A stretch of 64,000 bases of DNA from assembly GCF_000421145.1 (NCBI RefSeq), contig NZ_ATWH01000001.1, positions 310,001 to 374,000 on the forward strand. Direction: 5' to 3'. The notes under the pieces are model-generated. The model was not told where the DNA came from. It saw only the letters and a program-made list of their open reading frames with translations, and did not search any database. Source of the stretch: Glaciibacter superstes DSM 21135. GTDB lineage: Bacteria; Actinomycetota; Actinomycetes; Actinomycetales; Microbacteriaceae. The position numbers and the translations under genes are program-made. Below, piece after piece: positions 2,251 through 45,745 of this stretch (position 1 is the stretch's first letter; each line of letters opens with the position of its first letter).

Positions 2251-3132
2251 ATGACCCGAACAGACTTACTGGCTGCCGACACCGGCATGGGCGCGGTGAC
2301 CCTCCGCGTCGGAAACCTCGACGCCATGATCGCCTACTATCGCGATGCCGTCACGCTCGAGCTGCTCAGCCACGACGGACCGGTCGCCGTGCTCGGCCGC
2401 GGCACCACTCCCATCGTGATCCTGCAGCACGCACCAGAGCTGGCGTCGCCGGAACCTCGTGCGGCAGGCCTGTTCCACACCGCCATCGTGTTCGACACCC
2501 AGGCGCAGCTCGCCGCGGCCGTCTATTCGGTTGCCACGAAGCATCCGGGCACCTTCACCGGCAGCGCAGACCATCTGGTCAGCCAGGCTTTCTACTTCAC
2601 CGACCCAGAGAGCAACGGCATCGAGCTGTATTGGGACCGCGACCGCTCTTCGTGGAGCTGGACCCACGGTCAGGTCGAGATGGCGACCCTCTATCTCGAC
2701 CCGAACACGTTCATCTCCGAGCACATGACGGAGGCGGGAGTGAGCGACCCATCGGCCGGGCACGCGGTCGTCGGCCACGTGCATCTCTCGGTCGGAGACG
2801 TGGCGAGCGCCCGCGAGTTCTACGTTGACAGACTCGGCTTCGAGACCACGGCGGCGCTCGGTGACTCCGCCCTGTTCGTCTCTGCGGGCGGCTACCACCA
2901 CCACATGGCGATGAACACCTGGAACAGCGCGGGCAGCGGCCGGCGCCGTCTCGCGCTCGGACTCGGCCAGGTAGACATCATCGTGCCGACCGGCGACGAT
3001 CTGGCTGCGCTGAACGAACGGATGTCGCACTACGGTGTGCAGACCCGAAACGACGGGCAAACGGTCGGCTTCGACGACCCGTGGGCGAACGCGATCACGG
3101 TGCGCACGGCATCCGTCTCGCCCGCCGTCTGA
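2251..3132 (+). CDS. Two-domain VOC protein, CatE-like catechol-2,3-dioxygenase
   Basis: The 293-residue protein has two vicinal-oxygen-chelate modules, at about residues 10-125 and 165-290. Landmarks are GLFHTAIVF, TDPESNGIELYWDR, GHVHLSVGD and FVSAGGYHHHMAMN. These match the layout of Bacillus CatE, annotated as a catechol 2,3-dioxygenase, though its natural substrate is poorly settled. The second module lacks the usual late glutamate (DDPWANAITV), while the first keeps it. The start is taken at 2251 because MTRTDLLAADTGMGAV begins as relatives do; an ATG at 2221 is also in frame. It appears to be a single gene. Confidence 0.85.
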   Translation: MTRTDLLAADTGMGAVTLRVGNLDAMIAYYRDAVTLELLSHDGPVAVLGRGTTPIVILQHAPELASPEPRAAGLFHTAIVFDTQAQLAAAVYSVATKHPGTFTGSADHLVSQAFYFTDPESNGIELYWDRDRSSWSWTHGQVEMATLYLDPNTFISEHMTEAGVSDPSAGHAVVGHVHLSVGDVASAREFYVDRLGFETTAALGDSALFVSAGGYHHHMAMNTWNSAGSGRRRLALGLGQVDIIVPTGDDLAALNERMSHYGVQTRNDGQTVGFDDPWANAITVRTASVSPAV

Positions 3133-4781: not shown

Positions 4782-5722
4782 TTGTTCCTGCCCTTCATGA
4801 CGATGCCGAGCACGGCACCGACTACAACTATCGACATGAACAGGGTCACCGCGAGGGCGCTCGATTCGCCGGCCAGCCCATAGGAGAAGGCCGAACGCTG
4901 AATCTCGTACGAGACCATGTTGGTCGATCCTGCTGGCCCGCCCTGGGTGAGCAGATAGATCGGGTCGAAGACCTGGATCGAGTTGATGAAGGTCATCAGG
5001 AGAACGAACACGAGCGTTTTGTTCAGCATCGGGATCGTGATCGACCAGGTCTGCCTGACGAGACCAGCGCCGTCGATCTTGGCTGCCTCGTACAGGTCTT
5101 CCGGGATCTGCGTGAGACCGGCGACCAAGAGGATCACGTAGTAGCCAAGCATCTGCCAGACGTTGAAGATGACCAGTGAGATAAGAGCCCAGGATGGATC
5201 ACTCAGCCAACCGGGCGGAGTGACTCCGATCGCCTGCAGCATGGTGCTGAGTGGCCCGTAACCCGGCGCGTAGATGTTGCTCCAGATGATGACGATCGCG
5301 ATCGTCGGGATGACGTAGGTCGAGAACAGGATGACCCGCACCAGTCCCTTGCCCTTGAGTTTGGGAAAGTAGAGAAGCATGGCGATCAGCAGGCCGAGGG
5401 GAACGGTGATCACGATGCTCAGCACGACGTAGATCGCGGTGTTCCCCATCGCCTGGATGCGGTTGGAGTCGTCGAAGAGTGTCTCGTAGTTCTCGAGCCC
5501 CACCCAGTTCATCTCGGTGATCGGTGTGAACATCGACCACTCGTGGAGGCTGATGACGAAGGTCATGACCATCGGGATCAGCGTGAAGACGCCGATCACG
5601 ATGAGCGCGGGGCTGAGGAATAACGCGGACCAGCGGCCCTGACCCTTCTGCCGGCTCTTCGGGCGTGGAGCGCGCCGGGGAAGGAGGGCTGCTCCCTCCC
5701 CGGCGATCTTGACTGTTGTCAC
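4778..5722 (-). CDS. ABC sugar transporter permease, MalF type
   Basis: The 314-residue partner permease has six predicted spans, beginning SALFLSPALIVIGVF, and an EAA loop EAAKIDGAGLVRQTW. Its basic N-terminus (RRAPRPKSRQKGQGR) fits the positive-inside rule. The start is GTG at 5722 with AGAGAAG upstream. It sits 47 bases after the binding-protein gene and overlaps the MalG-type gene by 4 bases. Context suggests uptake of MurNAc or a cell-wall sugar, but the permease sequence itself does not reveal the substrate. Confidence 0.93.
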   Translation of the reverse strand: MTTVKIAGEGAALLPRRAPRPKSRQKGQGRWSALFLSPALIVIGVFTLIPMVMTFVISLHEWSMFTPITEMNWVGLENYETLFDDSNRIQAMGNTAIYVVLSIVITVPLGLLIAMLLYFPKLKGKGLVRVILFSTYVIPTIAIVIIWSNIYAPGYGPLSTMLQAIGVTPPGWLSDPSWALISLVIFNVWQMLGYYVILLVAGLTQIPEDLYEAAKIDGAGLVRQTWSITIPMLNKTLVFVLLMTFINSIQVFDPIYLLTQGGPAGSTNMVSYEIQRSAFSYGLAGESSALAVTLFMSIVVVGAVLGIVMKGRNK

Positions 5723-37177: not shown

Positions 37178-37678
37178 TCAGTCCAGGTCGTAGTCGAGAA
37201 CCAGCTCGTAGCCGTTCTCTGCGTGGCCGCTGATGCGCAGTTCGGCCTCTCCCCGCAACGCGGTGAGCCCACCGGTGCCGAGGCCGGGCACCACTTCCAG
37301 CCGCGCGGTCACCGATCCGGCATCCTGGTCACCGATATGCCGCAAGACGCAGCTTCCATCGTGCCCGCCGATCGACCCCTCGAACCGTTCGAAACCGACG
37401 ACAGGTGCCGGCGCCGGCATGTAGGAGATCAGATAAGCGACCGAGCCGGTTCCCTCGATGTCGCCGGTGTAGATGTAGGTGACATCCGCGCGGGTCAGGC
37501 CGCGCTTCGGATAATACGTCTCACCCATCGTGGTGCCCTCACCGTCGATGTCGGCGAAAACGGATTCCGACCAGGATCCGACGGTGAATCGGCACACCGC
37601 TCTCTGCGAATACGCCTGCGGCGACCGATCATCGCGTGACTGGGTTTCTTTTGACTGGGTCTCCTGTGACTGGGTCAT
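37178..37678 (-). CDS. DUF3224 family protein
   Basis: This 166-residue beta-rich protein has AVCRFTVGSWSESVFADIDG, AYLISYMPAPAPVVGFERFEG and GHDGSCVLRHIGDQDAGSV, typical of DUF3224 proteins, which are often encoded beside AraC or marker-like regulators. Here the AraC gene is divergent, 72 bases away. ATG 37678 has TACGGT 6 bases upstream and no ribosome site (leaderless). The first 14 residues are encoded by a 15-base tandem repeat. Confidence 0.82.
   Translation of the reverse strand: MTQSQETQSKETQSRDDRSPQAYSQRAVCRFTVGSWSESVFADIDGEGTTMGETYYPKRGLTRADVTYIYTGDIEGTGSVAYLISYMPAPAPVVGFERFEGSIGGHDGSCVLRHIGDQDAGSVTARLEVVPGLGTGGLTALRGEAELRISGHAENGYELVLDYDLD
37636..37678. repeat. 15-base tandem repeat at the 5' end of the DUF3224 gene
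   Basis: Three units of about 15 bases (core TGACTGGGT) lie at 37636-37650, 37651-37665 and 37666-37678. On the minus strand they encode TQSQE-TQSKE-TQSRD right after the start codon. Because 15 is a multiple of three, copy-number changes would keep the frame. Confidence 0.7.
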
Positions 37679-37750
37679 ACGTCGACCGTACGAGAACGTC
37701 ACCGCCACCGTCTTGAACAAACGCGACGAGCGGCGCGTACGCTCGGGTTC

Positions 37751-38560
37751 ATGCCACACATCCCGCGCGGCCAGCCGGCCGCCGTCCTGCGACCGAAGGC
37801 AGCGAGTCAGGCCTTCGAAATCGAACGAATCGCGCCGCGCGAATCGCTAGCGGAGTTCGTCGACTACTACTGGCTGGTGCGTTGGAGCACACCGGAACCA
37901 TTCCGGCAGCAAGTGGTCCCTCAGCCGCGCATCCAGCTGGCCGCTGAGCACGGCCGACTTCTCGTGCACGGGGTCAGCCGTCAACCGTTCTTCCGCTCAC
38001 TGCACGGCGACGGACACGCGCTCGGAGCGGCCTTCCATGCCGCCGGCTTCCGTCCGTTTCTCCGATCCAGCGTCGGCAGCGTGAGCGGCCAGGTGGTGCC
38101 GGCGGGCGACCTGTTCGACATCGATGACGCCCCGGTCGCCGAAGCAATACTCGGGGATCGAGATGACAGCGGCAAGATCGTGGGCCTGCTCGAGAACTAC
38201 CTCGAGCTTCGTCGACCCCGGTCAGACCACACCGCGACTGACCTGACCGCTCTCGTCGCCTTCGCAGAGCACACGCCAGAGCTGACGCGCGCCGATGAAC
38301 TCGCTCATCATGCGGGTCTCGGCCTCCGCACCCTGCAGCGCCTGTTCACCGAATACGTGGGCATCGGGCCGAAGTGGGTGATCCAGCGTTTTCGTCTGCT
38401 CGACGCGGCACAGGCGGCTCACACCGGCACGGATGTCGACTGGGCGGGCCTTGCCGCCCATCTCGGCTTCAGCGACCAGGCCCACCTGACCCGCGTGTTC
38501 GCCCATGTTGTCGGCACGCCGCCGGCCGCCTACGCCCGCGAGGCACGCGCCGAGCCGTGA
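37751..38560 (+). CDS. AraC-family transcriptional regulator
   Basis: The 269-residue protein has an N-terminal sensing region with LAEFVDYYWLVRWSTPEPF, the DUF6597-like block found in many AraC regulators. The C-terminal double helix-turn-helix (about 165-265) has LGLRTLQRLFTEYVGIGPKW and LAAHLGFSDQAHLTRVFAHV. It is divergent from the DUF3224 gene, which it may control. The stop lies just before a family C palindrome. Confidence 0.9.
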   Translation: MPHIPRGQPAAVLRPKAASQAFEIERIAPRESLAEFVDYYWLVRWSTPEPFRQQVVPQPRIQLAAEHGRLLVHGVSRQPFFRSLHGDGHALGAAFHAAGFRPFLRSSVGSVSGQVVPAGDLFDIDDAPVAEAILGDRDDSGKIVGLLENYLELRRPRSDHTATDLTALVAFAEHTPELTRADELAHHAGLGLRTLQRLFTEYVGIGPKWVIQRFRLLDAAQAAHTGTDVDWAGLAAHLGFSDQAHLTRVFAHVVGTPPAAYAREARAEP

Positions 38561-38572
38561 AATAGGCACCGA

Positions 38573-38639
38573 GCCGTGAGCTGAGCACCTTCCCAGGCCC
38601 ACACCTTCCCAGGCCCTTGGAACGTGCTCAACTCACGGT
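38573..38639. repeat. Palindrome, family C copy 2
   Basis: GCCGTGAGCTGAGCAC (38573-38588) pairs with GTGCTCAACTCACGGT (38624-38639) at 14 of 16 positions. The loop holds a direct repeat CCTTCCCAGGCCC (twice within 38588-38617). A half-copy (GAGCCGTGAAATAGGCACC) overlaps the AraC stop codon just upstream. Confidence 0.7.
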
Positions 38640-38692
38640 TCGGTGGGGAGAGTTAACGCGGGTGAGGCCGGCTGTGCGAGCGCCGCCGGGGG

Positions 38693-39061
38693 TCAGGCCG
38701 GTGTCTGCTGGTGCAGCGCGACGCACCAGCCACCGTGCTCGAAGACGTAGGTCGTCGACATGTTCAGTTCGACAGTGTTCTCGCCACGACGCGCGATCGC
38801 CCGATACGCGACGATCCCGGCGCGCTCGCCGATACGGATGATGGCGGTGTCACGCAGCTCATAGCTGTCCCAGGGAGCGGCGGATGCGAACGAAGCCGCG
38901 ATCTGATCCCGGCCGATGACTGCTCCTTCGACGATCATCAAGGCATCCCTGGTCATGGCCCGCTGGTAGTGCTCACCTCCACGTCCGTCGAGAATCGCTT
39001 CCCAGCCGGCATGTTCTTCGTTCAGCAGGCGGGCGGGCAGATCGTCGGTGATCTCAGTCAT
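38693..39061 (-). CDS. NTF2-like / DUF4440 family protein
   Basis: The small 122-residue alpha+beta protein has the cone-shaped SnoaL/NTF2 pattern: LLNEEHAGWEAILDGRGGEHY, ALMIVEGAVIGRDQIAASF, RAIARRGENTVELNMSTTYV and a final GGWCVALHQQTP. Members bind or convert small hydrophobic molecules; no catalytic assignment is possible. It starts 29 bases after the LuxR-type gene on the same strand and is probably in its transcript. Confidence 0.8.
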   Translation of the reverse strand: MTEITDDLPARLLNEEHAGWEAILDGRGGEHYQRAMTRDALMIVEGAVIGRDQIAASFASAAPWDSYELRDTAIIRIGERAGIVAYRAIARRGENTVELNMSTTYVFEHGGWCVALHQQTPA

Positions 39062-39090
39062 GCCCCAACGCTAGCGCAGCAACCAGTGCC

Positions 39091-39897
39091 TCACGGCTCG
39101 ATAAGCCGTCGTTCACTCGCGGCGATGAGCGCATCCTGCCGGCAATCAACGCCGAGCTTGCGATAGAGGCTGCGCAATTGGGACTTCACGGTGTTGGTGG
39201 AGACATACAGCGCGGCCGCGATTGCGGCGACATTTCCCGTCGACACCAACTGGTGAAGAACCACGCCCTCACGTTTTGTAAGCCCGGGCGTCATCAGGGT
39301 GGCGGTGAAAACTGCGGGATCGTCTTTGCGCCCGGCCAGCACGTCATCGTCGAGCGTCAAGCTGCTGCCCTCTGGCGCAACCAGCACCGTCTCCGACAGG
39401 AGTCGGTCGTCTGATTCGAGAGGACCACGACTGCGGGTGACGACGATCAACCGCACCTGCGGACTGCTCCGCACGACGTCGACGAGGTCGTCGTGAATTC
39501 CGATTTCGGCGACCAGGTGAAAATCGTCGAGAACGATAGTCACGGCATCCGTCAACCGGGCAAAGCTCCGGCGCAGGTGACGCCGCAGTTCGCCGACGGA
39601 ACCCAGCGCGGCCATCGAGTGCGTCAGGATGCTGTCGTCCGGCAGTAGCCGCGCACGGGTGAGGAGGCCGATGACCGCGGGCCAGAAGGCGAAGCGGGTG
39701 GCTGAGCCGGCTTCGATGGTGTGCCAGGCGCCCTGTCGCGCTGCTCCGCCACCGTTCGTCACCCAATCCGCGACGGCGAATGTCTTGCCGGAGCCGGCAG
39801 CGCCCCGCACGACGACAAGTGCGACATCCGCGTCCAGTGCAGCGTGTAGGCGCTGTCTGGCGACGAACCCCCGCGGTACACGTGGTGTTCCGTACAT
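39091..39897 (-). CDS. Compact MalT/LAL-type LuxR regulator
   Basis: The 268-residue protein opens like a MalT-family regulator, with GTPRVPRGFVARQRL, Walker A VRGAAGSGKTFAVADW (about 31-46), Walker B TIVLDDFHLV (about 118-127) and LIVVTRSRGPL. It then passes almost directly into a LuxR helix-turn-helix (about 205-262; LTKREGVVLHQLVSTGNVAA, STNTVKSQLRSLYRKLGV). MalT-type proteins are usually about 900 residues, with long TPR repeats between these parts; here that region is absent. GGGGGA precedes ATG 39897. Confidence 0.8.
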   Translation of the reverse strand: MYGTPRVPRGFVARQRLHAALDADVALVVVRGAAGSGKTFAVADWVTNGGGAARQGAWHTIEAGSATRFAFWPAVIGLLTRARLLPDDSILTHSMAALGSVGELRRHLRRSFARLTDAVTIVLDDFHLVAEIGIHDDLVDVVRSSPQVRLIVVTRSRGPLESDDRLLSETVLVAPEGSSLTLDDDVLAGRKDDPAVFTATLMTPGLTKREGVVLHQLVSTGNVAAIAAALYVSTNTVKSQLRSLYRKLGVDCRQDALIAASERRLIEP

Positions 39898-40018
39898 TTT
39901 TCCCCCGCAGTCAGCATATCGTCCGTTGCGGGCGGGCTGCGAGGGGCAGGACTCCCCATGGCGTGTCTCCGAGCGCGCGGCGCACACGTCTCGAGACCCG
40001 CCGAATTGAGGAGTGCTG

Positions 40019-40675
40019 CTAGAGGGAGGAACCGCCCGGCCCGGTCGCTGCTCCGTCGTCAAGGAGCACCCCGCCAATCGCGATACCCGCCCAGTCCACT
40101 GTCGTCCATCCCCCGGACACGGAGCCCTCAACCACGATGACACCGGTGTTGTGAAGTTCGTGCTGCAGGGCGAAGTCCGGGCTCACGTTTGGCGTGCGGG
40201 CGGCCACCCAAGAACGGATGATCTGACCGTGCGCAACGCAGGCAACCGTGCCCTCCCCGAGGGCATCGACCTCGTTGATGACCGCGTCGAAACGGGCGAA
40301 GACTTCCTCACCTGACTCGGCCCCTGGCATCCGTCGCCCCAGGTCCCCCGACGACCAGCCGAACGACGTCTCGTGATACAGGTCAACTGATGCGCGGTCG
40401 CGGTTCATCTCCAGGTCGCCTGCAGCGATCTCGCGAAGGCCGTCCCGTATGGTGACGGCGAGACCCAGGGAATCGGCGAGTGGTGCGGCGGTGAGCTGGG
40501 CGCGCTGTTGAACGGATGCGTAGATCGCGCCGATATTCTCAGCCGCGAGCGCGGCGGGGATGGCTGCGGCCTGCTCGTGCCCGAGCGTCGTCAGGCCAGG
40601 TCCAGGAACGAGAGTGTCGAGTGCTCCAAGCACGTTCGACGGCGTCTGCCCGTGCCTGATCAACAACAGCCGCAT
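40019..40675 (-). CDS. Histidine phosphatase (phosphoglycerate-mutase-like)
   Basis: The 218-residue protein starts MRLLLIRHGQTPSNVLGALD, with the catalytic RHG motif at residues 7-9. It has LREIAAGDLEMNRDRAS and the second histidine in VACVAHGQIIRSWV. Members hydrolyse sugar phosphates, nucleotides or proteins; the substrate is unknown. ATG 40675 is preferred over 40681 because AGAGGGG then has an 8-base spacing. It is divergent from the ubiquitin-like protein gene. Confidence 0.9.
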   Translation of the reverse strand: MRLLLIRHGQTPSNVLGALDTLVPGPGLTTLGHEQAAAIPAALAAENIGAIYASVQQRAQLTAAPLADSLGLAVTIRDGLREIAAGDLEMNRDRASVDLYHETSFGWSSGDLGRRMPGAESGEEVFARFDAVINEVDALGEGTVACVAHGQIIRSWVAARTPNVSPDFALQHELHNTGVIVVEGSVSGGWTTVDWAGIAIGGVLLDDGAATGPGGSSL

Positions 40676-40772
40676 GCCCATTACCCCTCTTCGTCGCAAA
40701 CGGGCAGTTTACCCGGAGCGCCCGAGCGTCACCTCTGGCCGATGGAACGGACAACCGGTCCGGGCGCTCCGC

Positions 40773-40778
40773 TACAGT
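40773..40778 (+). promoter_or_regulatory. -10 box of the ubiquitin-like protein gene
   Basis: TACAGT ends 6 bases before the ATG at 40785 with no ribosome site between, so a leaderless transcript is likely. CGGACA about 19 bases upstream is a weak -35 candidate. Confidence 0.45.
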
Positions 40779-40784
40779 GATCGA

Positions 40785-41525
40785 ATGAGGAAGCTCTCCG
40801 CCGCTGTTATCGCGCTCGCCCTCGGCACTCTTCTTGCGCTGGGAAGCACGTCCGCCGCGTTCGCGATGGTCATGTACGTCGAGATCTCTGGGGCTGACAC
40901 CCTGACGTTGGATGTTCAGGGTTCCGACTCGGTTCAACAGGTCAAACACAAGATTTCTGAAGTGGCCGGATTTCCGGTGAGCGATCAGGTCTTGCTCTTC
41001 GAAAGCAAGGTACTCGAAGACGGCCGGACGCTCGCCGACTACAACGTGCAGGAGGGTTCGACGCTTGTGCTCCTGGTGACACCACAATGGATCGACGACG
41101 AATTGGGCACTCCCGTTCTCGACGAGGATTACGCCGATGCTGTCACGGCGAGCGGCGGCGGCGTGAGCTATGCGATCGCGGCGGGCAGCCTGCCAGTGGG
41201 CGTCGCTCTCGACGCCACGACCGGTGAGGTGAGTGGTGTGGCCACCGCGGCCGGCCCCTACGCCTTCGCGCTGACGGCGAGAAATCTCGCCGGAGCGATC
41301 GAACAAGACTTTTCGGGTGAAATTGCCGCGACCACGATTCCACCGGTACCGGATCCCGCGCCCGCGCCCGAGCCCGCGCCGAAGCAGGAAGACCACGGTG
41401 AGGAGTTGGCCGAGACCGGTTCGCCGTCGCCATTCCCTCTCGTGCTCGCAGCGGCAGTCGCGCTGCTGCTCGGCGTTGTCCTGCTGGCCTCCTCCCGTCG
41501 AGTGAGCCGGCTGGCCACGCATTAG
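40785..41525 (+). CDS. Secreted ubiquitin-like protein with Ig-like domain and LAETG wall-sorting signal
   Basis: This 246-residue protein has five parts. Residues 1-27 are a signal peptide (cleavage after AFA, leaving Met28 first). Residues 28-99 are a ubiquitin-like domain in which VKHKI, LLFESK and LEDGRTLADYN match ubiquitin closely. By hand alignment about 33 of 72 positions are identical, and the equivalents of K27, K29 and K48 are kept. Residues 100-180 are a putative Ig (He_PIG) domain with LPVGVALDATTGEVSG. Then come a Pro/Glu linker and LAETG at 208-212 with a membrane span and RR tail, a sortase signal. There is no terminal GlyGly, so it is not a conjugating ubiquitin as it stands. 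Function is unknown. Confidence 0.85.
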   Translation: MRKLSAAVIALALGTLLALGSTSAAFAMVMYVEISGADTLTLDVQGSDSVQQVKHKISEVAGFPVSDQVLLFESKVLEDGRTLADYNVQEGSTLVLLVTPQWIDDELGTPVLDEDYADAVTASGGGVSYAIAAGSLPVGVALDATTGEVSGVATAAGPYAFALTARNLAGAIEQDFSGEIAATTIPPVPDPAPAPEPAPKQEDHGEELAETGSPSPFPLVLAAAVALLLGVVLLASSRRVSRLATH

Positions 41526-41636
41526 CGCCGTGGCTCAATCTCGATCGGCGAGTACCACATCGAACCCCAGCCGGGGGATGGTGCCGGACGGACGGCATCC
41601 GTAGGCTGAATCCACCGACGCGCGGGCGGAGTAGCC

Positions 41637-42431
41637 ATGTTGAATTGGTTCTACGAGACAAGCCTGTGGATCACGCTGCCCCTGTTCGTGGGCGGGTTTG
41701 TACTCGTCTCGTGCCTGATCGTCGTCGCGCTCCGTCCGGCCGTGCGTCGGCTCGTCACCGACACAAATGAGTGGGACCGCGCGCTCGCCCATGTCATCGG
41801 CACGTTCGGCGTGTTCTTCGGCATTCTGCTGGCTCTCGTTGCGGTGTCGGTGTACGAGAATTTCTCCGACACACGCAATGTCACCATCGTGGAGGCGGGA
41901 CAGGTCGGTGCCCTCTACCGTGCCACCACCGCGCTGCCCAATGAGACGGGGGACCCGATGCGGGACCTACTCGACGCATACATGCATGCGGTGATCAACT
42001 CCGACTTTCCCCAACAGCAGTTGGGGATCCTGCCCGACGCCAGCGACACCGAGATAGACGAGATCGAGAAGCTTTTGCACACCGTCGATGTTGAACCTGG
42101 TGAAGAGCAGGCGGAGTAGCAACAGGTGCTCGCCGCATTCGATGCCGTCATCGAGGCGAGGCGAGCGCGCATCGATGCCACGGCACTCGCACTGCCCCCG
42201 CTCCTCTGGCTCATCATCTGGGTCGGCGCCGCGGTCAACGCGGTGTTGATCGCATTCATCGACGTGAAGAACATTCGCCTGCACTTGCTCATGGCAAGCC
42301 TGCTCGCGGTGTTCATCGGACTCGTCATCTTCGTCACTGCCGACATGGACCACCCTTATGCCGGGGCAGTCTCTGTCGATCCAGGCGCGTTCGAGCGAGT
42401 GCGCGAACAGATCATCGACGTGCGGGAATAG
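41637..42431 (+). pseudogene. DUF4239 membrane protein interrupted by an in-frame amber codon
   Basis: The first half (41637-42119, 160 codons) has two membrane spans and the DUF4239 pattern AHVIGTFGVFFGILLALVAV, then EAGQVGALYRATTALP. It stops at TAG (42117-42119). The same frame continues with QQVLAAFDAVIEARRARIDA and two more spans (LPPLLWLIIWVGAAVNAVLI, LLMASLLAVFIGLVIFVTAD), the expected second half. A CAG or GAG to TAG change would explain it. Alternatives are re-start at GTG 42126 or readthrough. GGAG precedes the ATG. Confidence 0.8.
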
Positions 42432-42476
42432 TGTGCGCGCCGTTGGTTCTGGTGTCATGCCGAGCACCTCACGGGC

Positions 42477-42962
42477 ATGGGCCGCCAGCAAGAGGACCGC
42501 CAGTTGCCAATAGGGAGAGGAGGATATTCTTCGCCTGCATCAAGGATGAATATTCGACTATTCGCCCCGCTGCATGACGCTGTGCCGATCCTGCACATCA
42601 ACGATGACCCGTCCCGTGTTGGATCGAAGCGGATCAGCGACGGCTTGTCACTGGCCATCGGTGGAGAGTTCAACCACCACTCGGTCACAACGCAGCACTT
42701 CATTGCCGAGGTGAAGTCATGGGGTGCGGTCAGCGAACGACGAGCACTCGCGGTTGTCGCAGAAACGCTCGAGGCGTTCGGGAACGCCCTCGACGCGACC
42801 CCTGAGATCGCCGGCGGTAGTCCCGGGCTGAAGAACCGTCTCGGTTACAACCTCGACAGACTCGCCGCCGGTAAACCGATCGGCAAACCGAAGATGCCGT
42901 TGAAGGACTGGAAACAGGATGTGCGCCCGGAGGGACTCGAACGCCAACCTTCTGATCCGTAG
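42477..42962 (+). pseudogene. 3' remnant of a HipA-family kinase toxin gene
   Basis: About 105 residues resemble the C-terminal end of HipA: IRLFAPLHDAVPILHI, then DGLSLAIGGEFNHHSV and AVVAETLEAFGNAL. The kinase core and any hipB partner are absent, so it cannot be active. The start is uncertain; the homology begins near 42540. The frame then runs on through a tRNA fragment, which supplies its last 14 residues (VRPEGLERQPSDP region), so this end is a junction product. Confidence 0.65.
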
Positions 42963-42963
42963 A
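42921..42963 (-). other. tRNA-Arg 3'-half fragment, probable distal attachment site
   Basis: 43 bases match the 3' half of the tRNA-Arg at 56114-56186, from the acceptor end to the anticodon loop, in the same orientation. The first 16 and last 17 bases are identical, with one base missing and two substitutions between. This is the expected far-end att copy of an element integrated at the 3' end of that tRNA. Confidence 0.75.
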
Positions 42964-43075
42964 TCGTGGTTTTCGGCTGAGCAGATGGCTGCCGATCTGC
43001 GCTCCGATGATCGACCCTGCATCAGCTGTTAGCCGGCCTCGGAGCCGAAGCCACGAGCATCATGGCTGGGTGCAG

Positions 43076-44290
43076 CTAAGACAGTGGCGGCGCGCTCCCC
43101 GCCCAACCCGGCGTCGCTTTCCCTGAGTCGACGAGGGAGCAGATCGCGGCGGCGGCGGCGCCTCGCGCCCAGTCCTCGAAGGTGTGGGGGCGGGTCACGA
43201 TGCGGCACTTCGCCGCCGCACCGAAGGCGTGAGCTTGGAACGCGTCGCGCAGGCTCTGCTCGAAGAGGTCAAAATTAGACACGGCCTCGCCGCCGATGAT
43301 GACAAGTTCCGGGCCCACCAGGTTCACAAGACTCGCAATCGCCGTGCCGATGAGCGTCGCGGCCTCTTGGAACGCCGCGGTCGCCGCCGGGTCACCTTCG
43401 TGCGCGAGCTGCACTGCCTCGTCAACGGTGACCGCCCGCCCGTGGGCTCGCGACACCGTCTCTTCAATGGCGGCCGTCGCCGCGACCGCCTCGACACAGC
43501 CCCGCCGACCACAAGAGCAGATCCGGTCGCGCGGGGCGAGTGGTAGATGGCCGATCTCGCCAGCGACCCCGTTCGCTCCCCCGACGACCTCACCGTTGAC
43601 GTACAGACCGCTGCCGATGCCACGTCCGATCGTGACAATCGCGAACGACCCCGTGCCCACACCGACGCCGAACCAGTGCTCCCCGATGGTGAGCGCACGC
43701 ACGTCGTTCTCGAGCGTCACCTGCCACGGCAAACGCGCACTCAGCTGCCTCCCGAACTCCTCGCCACTCCAACCCATCAGCGCGGCCTCGCGCACCACCC
43801 CTGCCACCGTGTCGACGTCGCCCGACACAGCGACGCCCACGCCGACGATCCTTCCAGCCATCTCGCCGATCCGGTCCTCCAACCGACGGCACAGCGCCTC
43901 GATCCCGTCGGCCACCGTCGCGGGGTCGTGGGCCTCTAACGGCATCCGGTCGCTCGCCAGCACCCTGGTGGTCAGGTCTGTCGCGACGCCAACGAGTTCG
44001 TCGATGGTGACCTTGACACCCAACATCGCCATCGCCTCTGGGATCACCGCAACGGGATGAGCTGGACGGCCGGGGCGGCCATCGGGGCTGAGGGAAAGCT
44101 TCGCATCGACGAGACCTACAGCCACGAGAGGCGAGACGGCTTTCGTAACTGCGGCCTGCGAAAGGCCCGTCTCCCGCGCAATGTCTATGCGGCTGATCGG
44201 GCTGCGCGTGAGGATCGTCGTAAACACGCGGGTCGCCGCATCCGACGACGATCGCAGGAGGGCGGCTCTCATCGCGGTTTCGTCGTTCAT
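43076..44290 (-). CDS. ROK-family transcriptional regulator
   Basis: The 404-residue repressor has an N-terminal winged helix (about 15-70; ISRIDIARETGLSQAAVTKA). Its ROK domain has VGVGVAVSGDVD, ENDVRALTIGEHWFG, GRGIGSGLYVNGE and the zinc-binding CSCGRRGCVEAV (near 265). It keeps the sugar-binding His and zinc motif but has no clear ATP loop, as in XylR/NagC-type regulators. GAAGAGGAA precedes ATG 44290. It sits at the end of the island's minus-strand operon and probably binds the paired palindromes at 51246-51271. Confidence 0.9.
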   Translation of the reverse strand: MNDETAMRAALLRSSSDAATRVFTTILTRSPISRIDIARETGLSQAAVTKAVSPLVAVGLVDAKLSLSPDGRPGRPAHPVAVIPEAMAMLGVKVTIDELVGVATDLTTRVLASDRMPLEAHDPATVADGIEALCRRLEDRIGEMAGRIVGVGVAVSGDVDTVAGVVREAALMGWSGEEFGRQLSARLPWQVTLENDVRALTIGEHWFGVGVGTGSFAIVTIGRGIGSGLYVNGEVVGGANGVAGEIGHLPLAPRDRICSCGRRGCVEAVAATAAIEETVSRAHGRAVTVDEAVQLAHEGDPAATAAFQEAATLIGTAIASLVNLVGPELVIIGGEAVSNFDLFEQSLRDAFQAHAFGAAAKCRIVTRPHTFEDWARGAAAAAICSLVDSGKATPGWAGSAPPLS

Positions 44291-44368
44291 ATTTCCTCTT
44301 CGTTGTTGCCTACCGTAGCGAACGGCGGGCTGGCCGGGGAATCCCCCCGACCCGCCCGCCGGTTGTCG

Positions 44369-45712
44369 TCACTCCACGAGAATTTCCTCCGTCTTCGCGG
44401 TCATGTCTGCGAAGACGTCGTCATCCCTCTCACCGGTGAAGTACGCCTCGAACATCGGCTGGATCGAATCCGTCAGCTCCTGGCCGTTCGTCGTCGGCGG
44501 CGCCGGGTAGAGCTGCCCATTCTCGAGAGCTTCAATGAACGTCGACATGTCGACTCCCTGCTCTGCCTGCGCGTCAACGGCTGCCTGGAGAGCACCGGCG
44601 ATGGACGGGAGGAATGTGCCGTCCTCGCCCGCAATGGTCTGGCACTCCTCTGTGCCCATGTATGTGACCCAACTCCACGTCTCGTCGATGTGCTTCGTGC
44701 CCGCGTAGATGTTGTTGGCGTTCGAGTTGCTGATCATCATTCGGCCCTCGGGACCCTCGACTGTCGGCGCGATACCTACCTTCGTGTCGCGGATCTTCGA
44801 AGCGGGTGTCGCATCCCACGTGCCGCCTTCGATCATGGCGACCGAGCCGGAGCCCAGCTGCTCGAGCCCGGAGACGCTGAACTCACCGAAACCAGGCATG
44901 AGGCCGCGTGCGGCGAGGTCGCGGAAGTAGTTCATCGACTTCACGAACTCGGGATCATCGAAGGGTAGGCTCGTCGGCCACTCCGCCTCGTCCCCACCAA
45001 GTCGCCACCCGAACGTCGAGACGAACGAGTTCCACGAAGTTTGCCCGTTGAAATCGGAGGAGGCGAGGGTGCCGATGCCGTACGTCTTAACGTTCTCCGG
45101 ATCGAAACCGGACTCGTCGCCGCGGATGCCGTTCTCATCGATCGTAAGGCGCGAGATGACGTCATCGAACGTGCCGCCGTCATCCGGGTTCCACGTCATC
45201 GTCTTGATGTCCTCAGCGGTGAGCCCCGCATCGGTGACAAGATCCTCGTTGAAATAGATGGCGGCGCCTGCCCAGTCGAGCGGGATGCCGTACTGCTTGC
45301 CGTCGGTGAACTTCCAGGAGTCGACGCCAATGTCGAAGATCGAGAGGTCGTAGTCGCTCTCCTCGATAAGTTCGTCGAGCGCCATGATCTGGCCCTGCCC
45401 CGCGTACTCGCCAAGGAGCGGGACGCTGTTCTGGAACGCGTCCGGCGCCGTTCCAGCTACAAAGCCGGCGGTGAGCTTGGTGAAGTAGTCGTCGACCGCG
45501 TACTGCGAGATCTCGACCTTGATGCCGGGGTTCGCCGCCTCGAACGCGGGGATGCATTTGCGGTAGGACGCGGCCTGCGTGTCACTCCATGTCCACCAGT
45601 TGACGGTGACGTCGCCCGCTTCGGCGCTGTCACCGCCGCTGGCACACGAAGTCAGTCCGGAGACCGCGATCGCGGCCACCGCCAGTACGGTAATGATTTT
45701 GCGTTGTTTCAT
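44369..45712 (-). CDS. ABC sugar transporter substrate-binding lipoprotein
   Basis: The 447-residue family 1 extracellular binding protein has the signal MKQRKIITVLAVAAIAVSG and lipobox LTSC, then SGGDSAEAGDVTVNWWTWSD. Typical interior blocks are ALDELIEESDYDLSIFD, GIPLDWAGAAIYFNEDLV and SVAMIEGGTWDATPASK. ATG 45712 has GAGGA before it; a GTG 12 bases upstream is also in frame. It is unusual in lying after the esterase and GH95 genes rather than beside its permeases. It likely binds an oligosaccharide made by the secreted GH27. Confidence 0.92.
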   Translation of the reverse strand: MKQRKIITVLAVAAIAVSGLTSCASGGDSAEAGDVTVNWWTWSDTQAASYRKCIPAFEAANPGIKVEISQYAVDDYFTKLTAGFVAGTAPDAFQNSVPLLGEYAGQGQIMALDELIEESDYDLSIFDIGVDSWKFTDGKQYGIPLDWAGAAIYFNEDLVTDAGLTAEDIKTMTWNPDDGGTFDDVISRLTIDENGIRGDESGFDPENVKTYGIGTLASSDFNGQTSWNSFVSTFGWRLGGDEAEWPTSLPFDDPEFVKSMNYFRDLAARGLMPGFGEFSVSGLEQLGSGSVAMIEGGTWDATPASKIRDTKVGIAPTVEGPEGRMMISNSNANNIYAGTKHIDETWSWVTYMGTEECQTIAGEDGTFLPSIAGALQAAVDAQAEQGVDMSTFIEALENGQLYPAPPTTNGQELTDSIQPMFEAYFTGERDDDVFADMTAKTEEILVE

Positions 45713-45745
45713 TTCGTTCCTCACTCTGTGGTGTTGGACGCGCCG

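Follow-up and report, generated by a model that had tools for sequence, protein, structure and literature searches.

Within a 64,000-nucleotide stretch of the genome of Glaciibacter superstes DSM 21135 (positions 310,001 to 374,000 of contig NZ_ATWH01000001.1, here called the window; 66% G+C), the gene at 40785-41525 (+) encodes a protein of 246 amino acids which would carry a ubiquitin fold on the outside of a bacterial cell. Its intact open reading frame (ORF) joins a predicted signal peptide, a true ubiquitin domain, an Ig-like domain, a proline-rich spacer and a sortase signal with a membrane anchor. On the basis of sequence comparison, the identity of the domain and the architecture of the protein are firm, and display of the ubiquitin fold on the cell wall, as proposed in the first-pass annotation of this DNA, is well supported by the sequence, a structure model and a class E sortase gene in the same genome. 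Binding by the domain and its partner are what we infer. The reading favoured here, with a probability of roughly 55%, is that a captured ubiquitin fold now serves on the wall as a tip for non-covalent binding, with a partner likely residing on other microbial cells.

The ubiquitin domain and its scaffold

Residues 28-98 (71 amino acids; 40866-41078, +) align with ubiquitin without a gap, and 33 of the 71 positions (46%) are identical. This agrees closely with the roughly 33 of 72 positions counted in the first-pass annotation over residues 28-99, and the K27, K29 and K48 equivalents as well as the stretch LEDGRTL-DYN-Q--STL, which it had pointed out, are retained in the alignment. The sequence and structure searches that had been proposed there for the domain both lead to ubiquitin. 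PF00240 matches residues 37-100 with 66.8 bits (cut-off 25.4), which sets the domain apart from the generic beta-grasp family, devoid of ubiquitin affinity, that had been considered as the opposing outcome, and phmmer recovers ubiquitins from the PDB at E ~1e-12 per domain. Since none of 14 well-known control genomes gave a PF00240-type match, the family is not one commonly matched in bacteria. All 14 core positions of the domain are hydrophobic.

Modelling of the protein sequence alone with AlphaFold2 (AF2) gave a predicted local distance difference test (pLDDT) score of 36. With aligned rows, the best of five models reached a mean pLDDT of 94.7 and a predicted template modelling score (pTM) of 0.81, three of the five having a pLDDT of 71-75. 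The alignment consisted of the window protein and 16 rows, 11 of them ubiquitin-like (IMG/VR loci) and five Ig repeats (loci L002 and L003); the ubiquitin-like rows favour a ubiquitin fold in the model, the sequence evidence being independent of them. In a Foldseek search with this model, ubiquitin ranks first (TM-score by target 0.95, root-mean-square deviation (rmsd) 1.1), the leading ubiquitin chains lying at an rmsd of 0.7-1.1. VIA-align of the model gives Z ~15.9, and the crystal structure of BfUbb, the exported ubiquitin of Bacteroides fragilis (8hm2), matches it with Z 15.8 and rmsd 1.3.

Ahead of the domain lies a leader of 27 amino acids (40785-40865, +; MRKLSAAVIALALGTLLALGSTSAAFA) with a basic start, a hydrophobic core and an AFA end directly before the ubiquitin methionine (Met28). 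A simple heuristic for flush AxA/M sites, used in place of a dedicated predictor, puts the cut at AFA/MVMYV. As the leader ends in AFA before this methionine, cleavage would place ubiquitin Met1 first, as had been suggested. The ubiquitin domain is followed by a PQW linker and an Ig-like He_PIG domain (41079-41330, +; PF05345 on residues 120-176 with 35.5 bits, cut-off 24; strands in the model), a Pro/Glu-rich spacer visible in the translation (41331-41405, +), the motif LAETG (41406-41420, +) and a membrane helix with basic tail and stop (41421-41525, +; best 16-residue mean hydropathy 3.14), and the order of parts described at first pass thus holds. A GlyGly tail was not found behind the ubiquitin domain, positions 75-76 being W and I and the chain continuing into the Ig domain. 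LAETG with a subsequent hydrophobic stretch and basic tail is the layout of a LAXTG sortase substrate. Class E sortases act on LAXTG signals, and the single sortase match in the genome belongs to class E (242 bits, cut-off 160). From these standard signals we infer export, anchoring and orientation of the protein.

For the favoured reading, the following course is proposed. A ubiquitin domain whose ultimate source is of eukaryotic or eukaryotic-virus type would have been placed behind a signal peptide and before a resident Ig/LAETG scaffold. Sec would export the protein, signal peptidase would free ubiquitin Met1 and the class E sortase would join the LAETG threonine to the cell wall, so that a short Ig/Pro stalk would carry the ubiquitin fold at its outer tip. 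Conjugation would be impossible for such a domain, which would instead act as a stable non-covalent protein-binding tip with a remade face. Its partner would most likely be a protein of other microbial cells, in recognition or contact antagonism comparable to that of BfUbb, rather than eukaryotic ubiquitin machinery.

Changes of the ubiquitin surface

Remodelling of the surface was assessed in 33 domains, with two near-duplicates and the seven domains used as controls set aside. On the basis of preset core and Ile44-patch positions, as opposed to positions computed from a structure, the core is the best-kept region, its mean identity being 0.92 in the close group, 0.72 in the middle group and 0.56 in the far group. 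The Ile44 patch is less ubiquitin-like than the other surface in 24 of the 33 domains (Wilcoxon p 0.0003), and the same trend is seen in 14 of 21 hand-picked representatives (Wilcoxon p 0.017), both p-values being optimistic owing to the shared ancestry of the domains. When ten surface positions are drawn at random, values as low as that of the Ile44 patch arise in 0.8% of draws. Among the control domains (poly-ubiquitin units and leaderless ubiquitins), the patch lies above the other surface in six of seven, the seventh (L053) having 0.90 for the patch vs 0.94 for the other surface; three diverged poly-ubiquitin units show 0.80 vs 0.62-0.64. In the window domain, only 2 of 10 Ile44-patch positions are identical to ubiquitin. 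With GlyGly absent and most of the Ile44 face gone, conjugation can be almost excluded, and mimicry of host ubiquitin, one of the roles initially considered possible, is disfavoured for the window member.

Rates of change can be compared in three genome pairs in which the ubiquitin gene lies beside or near the same gene: flanks are 89-96% identical, the ubiquitin proteins 53-54%. Nonsynonymous divergence (dN) of flank vs ubiquitin gene is 0.022 vs 0.39 in pair G149b/G340a, 0.078 vs 0.45 in G167a/G223 and 0.034 vs 0.42 in G226a/G172, with synonymous divergence (dS) increasing from 0.37 to 1.37, from 0.96 to 1.56 and from 0.89 to 2.09, respectively. In the first pair, dN is 0.027 and 0.042 for two additional flanking genes, and a fourth, overlapping pair (G149b/G167a) gives 0.17 vs 0.55 with dS saturated. 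These rates fit a fast-changing surface protein, allele exchange being a likely part of the process. Loci L042, L048, L049 and L050 of a small-genome clade (genera g13/g39) show a ubiquitin gene that keeps its place beside conserved genes and changes fast in sequence.

Relatives, neighbours and origin

The window's genome (38 contigs, 4.8 Mb) contains one match and is the only one of 57 genomes of its genus to do so. Matches were found in 13 of 398 genomes of a family sample, at 18 places (8 of 350 at a completeness of at least 90% and a contamination of at most 5%), in 5 of 396 of an order sample and in 3 of 396 of a phylum sample, the latter two including the window's genome and one of the last three being judged contamination. 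Within three carrier genera, the gene is present in 1 of 22, 2 of 3 and 3 of 6 genomes. Owing to this sparse occurrence in all samples, the window gene is an accessory gene. Contamination is disfavoured, as the carrier genomes G202 and G1194 are single-contig. The ubiquitin of G829, which lies in long retroelement-like reading frames, was attributed on visual inspection to eukaryotic contamination in the bin and dropped.

The closest relative, encoded in G202, is 54% identical over 164 amino acids and has the same order of parts, with two anchor profiles, PF00746 and TIGR01167, above their cut-offs. A tree of about 72 residues groups the two with a support of 0.98 and supports a few close groups, such a domain being too short to decide the number of acquisitions. 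In G202 (L035:5366-9122), the ubiquitin gene and a class E sortase gene are on opposite strands, about 2 kb apart. Other relatives vary in composition: G285 and G948 have two tandem ubiquitins, the two copies in G285 differing from each other, and a fibronectin type III domain is added in G221 and G1194. A domain scan of the G172 ubiquitin protein found no Ig domain. In another family, G535 (C12, locus L021) has two nearby leaderless ubiquitin-type genes, one of which seems to be frame-shifted inside the domain. An L-x-x-T-G motif precedes the helix in 17 of 23 actinobacterial ubiquitin proteins (i.e., those within the window's phylum), with tails judged by eye, and a sortase is encoded by 15 of the 18 carrier genomes. 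None was matched in G304 (99% complete), whose ubiquitin protein has no LPxTG motif, in G154 (66% complete; LPATG) or in G223 (82% complete; LADTG).

At the window locus itself, the start at 40785 is supported by the -10-like element TACAGT of the leaderless type (40773-40778, +), which lies six bases 5' of the start codon; for comparison, of the 1590 ATGs on the two strands of the window, 15 are preceded by TANNNT at a distance of 5-9 bases. A scan of the gene region for sigma-70 consensus promoters and terminators gave no match. The ten neighbouring proteins scanned (37178-45724) include AraC-type and LuxR-type regulators, a histidine phosphatase, a ROK regulator and a solute-binding protein, with no E1, E2 or JAB domain among them, E1 and JAB having been looked for at this locus only. 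Directly 3' of the ubiquitin gene, a Bestrophin-like gene (PF14023; 41637-42431, +) is split into same-frame ORFs at 41637-42119 and 42126-42431, probably a pseudogene or a sequencing error. PADLOC gave no match. The third-position G+C of the window gene (0.74) resembles the values of seven neighbours (0.73-0.84) and so does not point to a recent arrival.

Long surface-type proteins of Leucobacter and Agromyces, in which no ubiquitin was found, contain repeats that are matched by the Ig part. On this sequence comparison, grafting of the ubiquitin onto a native Ig scaffold is most likely. Loci L002 and L003, which match the window protein by the Ig part only, are taken as scaffold evidence and not counted as ubiquitins. 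A search for shared partners, based on a home-made gene caller, covered 16 stretches from 15 carrier genomes plus Ruminococcus albus and the window. Neighbours are common to the close genera g13/g39 and within g47. Genera g364/g337 of family f91 (G935 and G948; L046 and L047) share the gene adjoining the ubiquitin gene (78% over 465 residues). Five other neighbour matches between genera (one of 71%, four of 27-35%) revealed no gene regularly adjoining ubiquitin, and the window locus shares no neighbour with any carrier stretch compared. The neighbouring phosphatase has a match in 56 of 57 genomes of the genus; at 11 such loci in congeners, about 1.5 kb on each side of the phosphatase did not contain the window's other neighbours, so that no insertion point for the ubiquitin gene emerged from this comparison.

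Exported ubiquitins are also encoded beyond the phylum. A tblastn search of plasmids identified a signal peptide and ubiquitin (66 of 75 positions identical to ubiquitin) on pRUMAL01 of R. albus 7. This protein, annotated as 'ubiquitin family protein' WP_013483628.1, shares with the window's a signal peptide flush with ubiquitin Met1, but has about 140 further residues without a Pfam match and no sortase motif (by our own rule), and is plasmid-borne and found in Clostridia. Among the open-licence literature matches listed, no study devoted to it was found. Its gene lies among small hypothetical genes near a dockerin protein gene (L031:5372-8273, +). On a plasmid of Pseudoalteromonas shioyasakiensis, tblastn found a ubiquitin heading a protein that is roughly 2,700 residues long and carries an Ig-like annotation. 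A Pantoea autotransporter (L030), for which the tblastn match spanned both domains, yet no ubiquitin alignment remained, was dropped.

IMG/VR contigs were scanned for exported ubiquitins and the hits subjected to domain scans. Behind signal peptide and ubiquitin, L069 has an autotransporter barrel (63 bits vs cut-off 26; L070 similar by look), L072 a PEP-CTERM signal (27.4 vs 20.7; the L073 copy ends early) and L056 an IPTL-CTERM signal (33.6 vs 20.5; L057 and L058 similar by look). The barrel of a further exported ubiquitin, L094, scores slightly below the cut-off (24.6 vs 26), and L051/L086 represent a free exported ubiquitin with LRLRGG kept. The remaining IMG/VR matches (L052, L053, L054, L059, L071) are poly-ubiquitins or leaderless ubiquitins. 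Two of the exported-ubiquitin genes are found on phage-type contigs. In L090 the gene (2322-2768, +), with an IPTL-CTERM tail, precedes by about 0.5 kb the genes for the small and large terminase subunits, beyond which portal, head protease and major head genes follow. L091 and L092 contain near-identical ubiquitin genes. L086 carries tail fibre, baseplate and DarA-like genes, and its exported ubiquitin with LRLRGG and a cyclophilin-type peptidyl-prolyl isomerase (PPIase) are encoded 1.8 kb apart (2471-3007, -, and 4808-5134, +); the PPIase deserves mention since BfUbb reportedly acts through such an enzyme. A search of named phages for ubiquitin relatives gave no match.

A hydrophobic leader is present in 23 of 33 proteins, and in 17 of these 23 a small-residue site, by a simple rule, lies exactly before the ubiquitin methionine. 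Of these flush sites 16 have Ala at -1, the remaining one, Gly in G167a, being doubtful. Ten of the 33 are leaderless (G154, G1194, G948, G961, G935, G535a, G535b, L053, L059 and L071). Loci L025 (LAATG), L012 (LPATG), L026, L027 and L028 are ubiquitin-headed with a C-terminal helix, and no signal peptide was found; in L025 and L012, TANNNT lies six bases 5' of the start codon. As a tentative generalization, ubiquitin genes may have been captured repeatedly, partly by phages, placed behind signal peptides flush with Met1 and fitted with the host's own anchors (LPXTG sortase, autotransporter barrel, PEP-CTERM, IPTL-CTERM) to yield tips for non-covalent interaction or contact antagonism. The window gene would then be one wall-anchored member, and BfUbb the first one described.

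Alternative roles and known systems

Several results weigh against the reading of a displayed binding tip with a remade face. Apart from the preset core and patch positions and the optimistic p-values mentioned above, the Ile44 face is kept better than the remaining surface in 9 of the 33 domains, including those of R. albus and L051, which preserve the whole patch. Also dS is raised at the ubiquitin genes, 1.6- to 3.7-fold in the three pairs; hence, allele exchange and not selection may explain part of the divergence. In addition, the pairs used for rates exclude the window gene. Regarding the anchor, NF058582, the closest sorting-signal profile, reaches 26.9 bits vs a cut-off of 27.0 (E 3.7e-6), and the general LPXTG profile TIGR01167 scores 11.5 vs 15.9 on the window protein. 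Finally, as five relatives with a C-terminal helix (G154, G1194, G948, G961 and G935) show no signal peptide, upstream frames having been judged by eye, display is not universal.

Among the alternatives, a use of the ubiquitin fold as a robust structural module only, a cap or spacer with no specific partner, survives best, though it is unlikely. It would account for a core that is kept as the surface diverges, and beta-grasp domains build other Gram-positive surface proteins, e.g. MucBP and internalin B repeats. However, the domain is N-terminal and present once or twice instead of forming a repeated stalk, 17 of the 23 proteins with a leader have a predicted cleavage site flush with Met1, and the two tandem copies of G285 differ.

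A more specific proposal, drawn by analogy with BfUbb, is a wall-anchored killing factor whose ubiquitin tip would act on a protein of related bacteria on contact. BfUbb is described as exported, devoid of GlyGly and having a signal peptide cut at Met1 (PMC5705921, PMC3352274), and its mature synthetic form inhibits a subset of B. fragilis strains (PMC5705921); residue Tyr119 of a PPIase is reported to set sensitivity to it (Jiang et al. 2024, Nat Microbiol, via PMC12396204). Besides the close structural match between the BfUbb crystal and our model, the sparse distribution, fast change and plasmid and phage carriage of the relatives suit a competition factor. In contrast, BfUbb is free and consists of one domain, which shares 63% identity with human ubiquitin and has a C-terminal Cys (PMC3352274), and the window protein bears a wall anchor as well as an Ig domain. 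The ten neighbours offer no obvious candidate for an immunity gene, although BfUbb is said to need none (PMC5705921). A killing role is regarded as doubtful; it and the plain structural cap are the main competitors of the favoured reading.

It is improbable that the protein mimics host ubiquitin toward eukaryotes (protists, fungi, plants or animals) as decoy or adhesin. Ubiquitin ancestry is clear, and the proteins of R. albus and L051, 88-94% identical to ubiquitin, keep the entire Ile44 patch; the window domain, however, retains two of its ten positions and lacks GlyGly. Most known ubiquitin readers are, moreover, cytosolic. Decay of a horizontal acquisition without function is highly improbable: a single occurrence in the genus and the in-frame stop splitting the downstream Bestrophin-like gene would suit it, but the reading frame is intact, the hydrophobic core and the export and anchor signals are preserved, and G202, of another genus, encodes the related protein of the same layout. 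Conjugation by a bacterial E1/E2 system, which is practically excluded, has nothing but ubiquitin ancestry in its favour; against it stand the missing GlyGly, the Ig domain fused at the C-terminus, the signal peptide and the absence of E1, E2 and JAB among the ten neighbours scanned. An E2 search found none in 18 carrier genomes, but its controls were silent as well, so that it has no evidential value.

Bub/Bil and CBASS-type ubiquitin-like conjugation systems have a ubiquitin-related fold and form cytoplasmic operons with E1, E2 and JAB, unlike the window gene with its ten neighbours. The initial claim that the protein differs from known bacterial conjugation systems needs correction in that a bacterial precedent exists: BfUbb, too, is exported, has no GlyGly and has its signal peptide cut at Met1. 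Export of a bacterial ubiquitin is, hence, already known, and by this comparison the wall-anchored multi-domain form and the other anchors would be what is new. No description of an anchored bacterial ubiquitin was found among the open-licence literature matches listed, which is weak evidence of absence. With a wall-anchored form, and a total of four kinds of anchor or sorting signal among exported ubiquitins, what had been an isolated curiosity, BfUbb, would become a class. Ubiquitin is emblematic of protein control in eukaryotes, and an outward-facing ubiquitin fold raises the question of what it binds; the relatives offer a natural gradation between an almost unchanged ubiquitin and surfaces that are heavily remodelled.

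Compared with eukaryotic ubiquitin (PF00240), the window domain agrees in family score, fold, Met1, core, K27, K29 and K48, and differs in lacking GlyGly, in a mostly lost Ile44 face, in its export and in its fusion to a surface protein. With BfUbb, the known ubiquitin that it resembles most, it shares the signal peptide cut at Met1, the absence of GlyGly and the fold (8hm2); unlike BfUbb, which occurs in some B. fragilis strains only (PMC3352274), is free and inhibits kin, it is 46% identical to ubiquitin, wall-anchored and followed by an Ig domain. With LPXTG/LAXTG surface proteins of the He_PIG type, finally, the window protein has signal peptide, Ig domain, Pro-rich spacer, LAETG, helix, basic tail and class E sortase in common, and it is set apart from them by the ubiquitin domain at its N-terminal tip.
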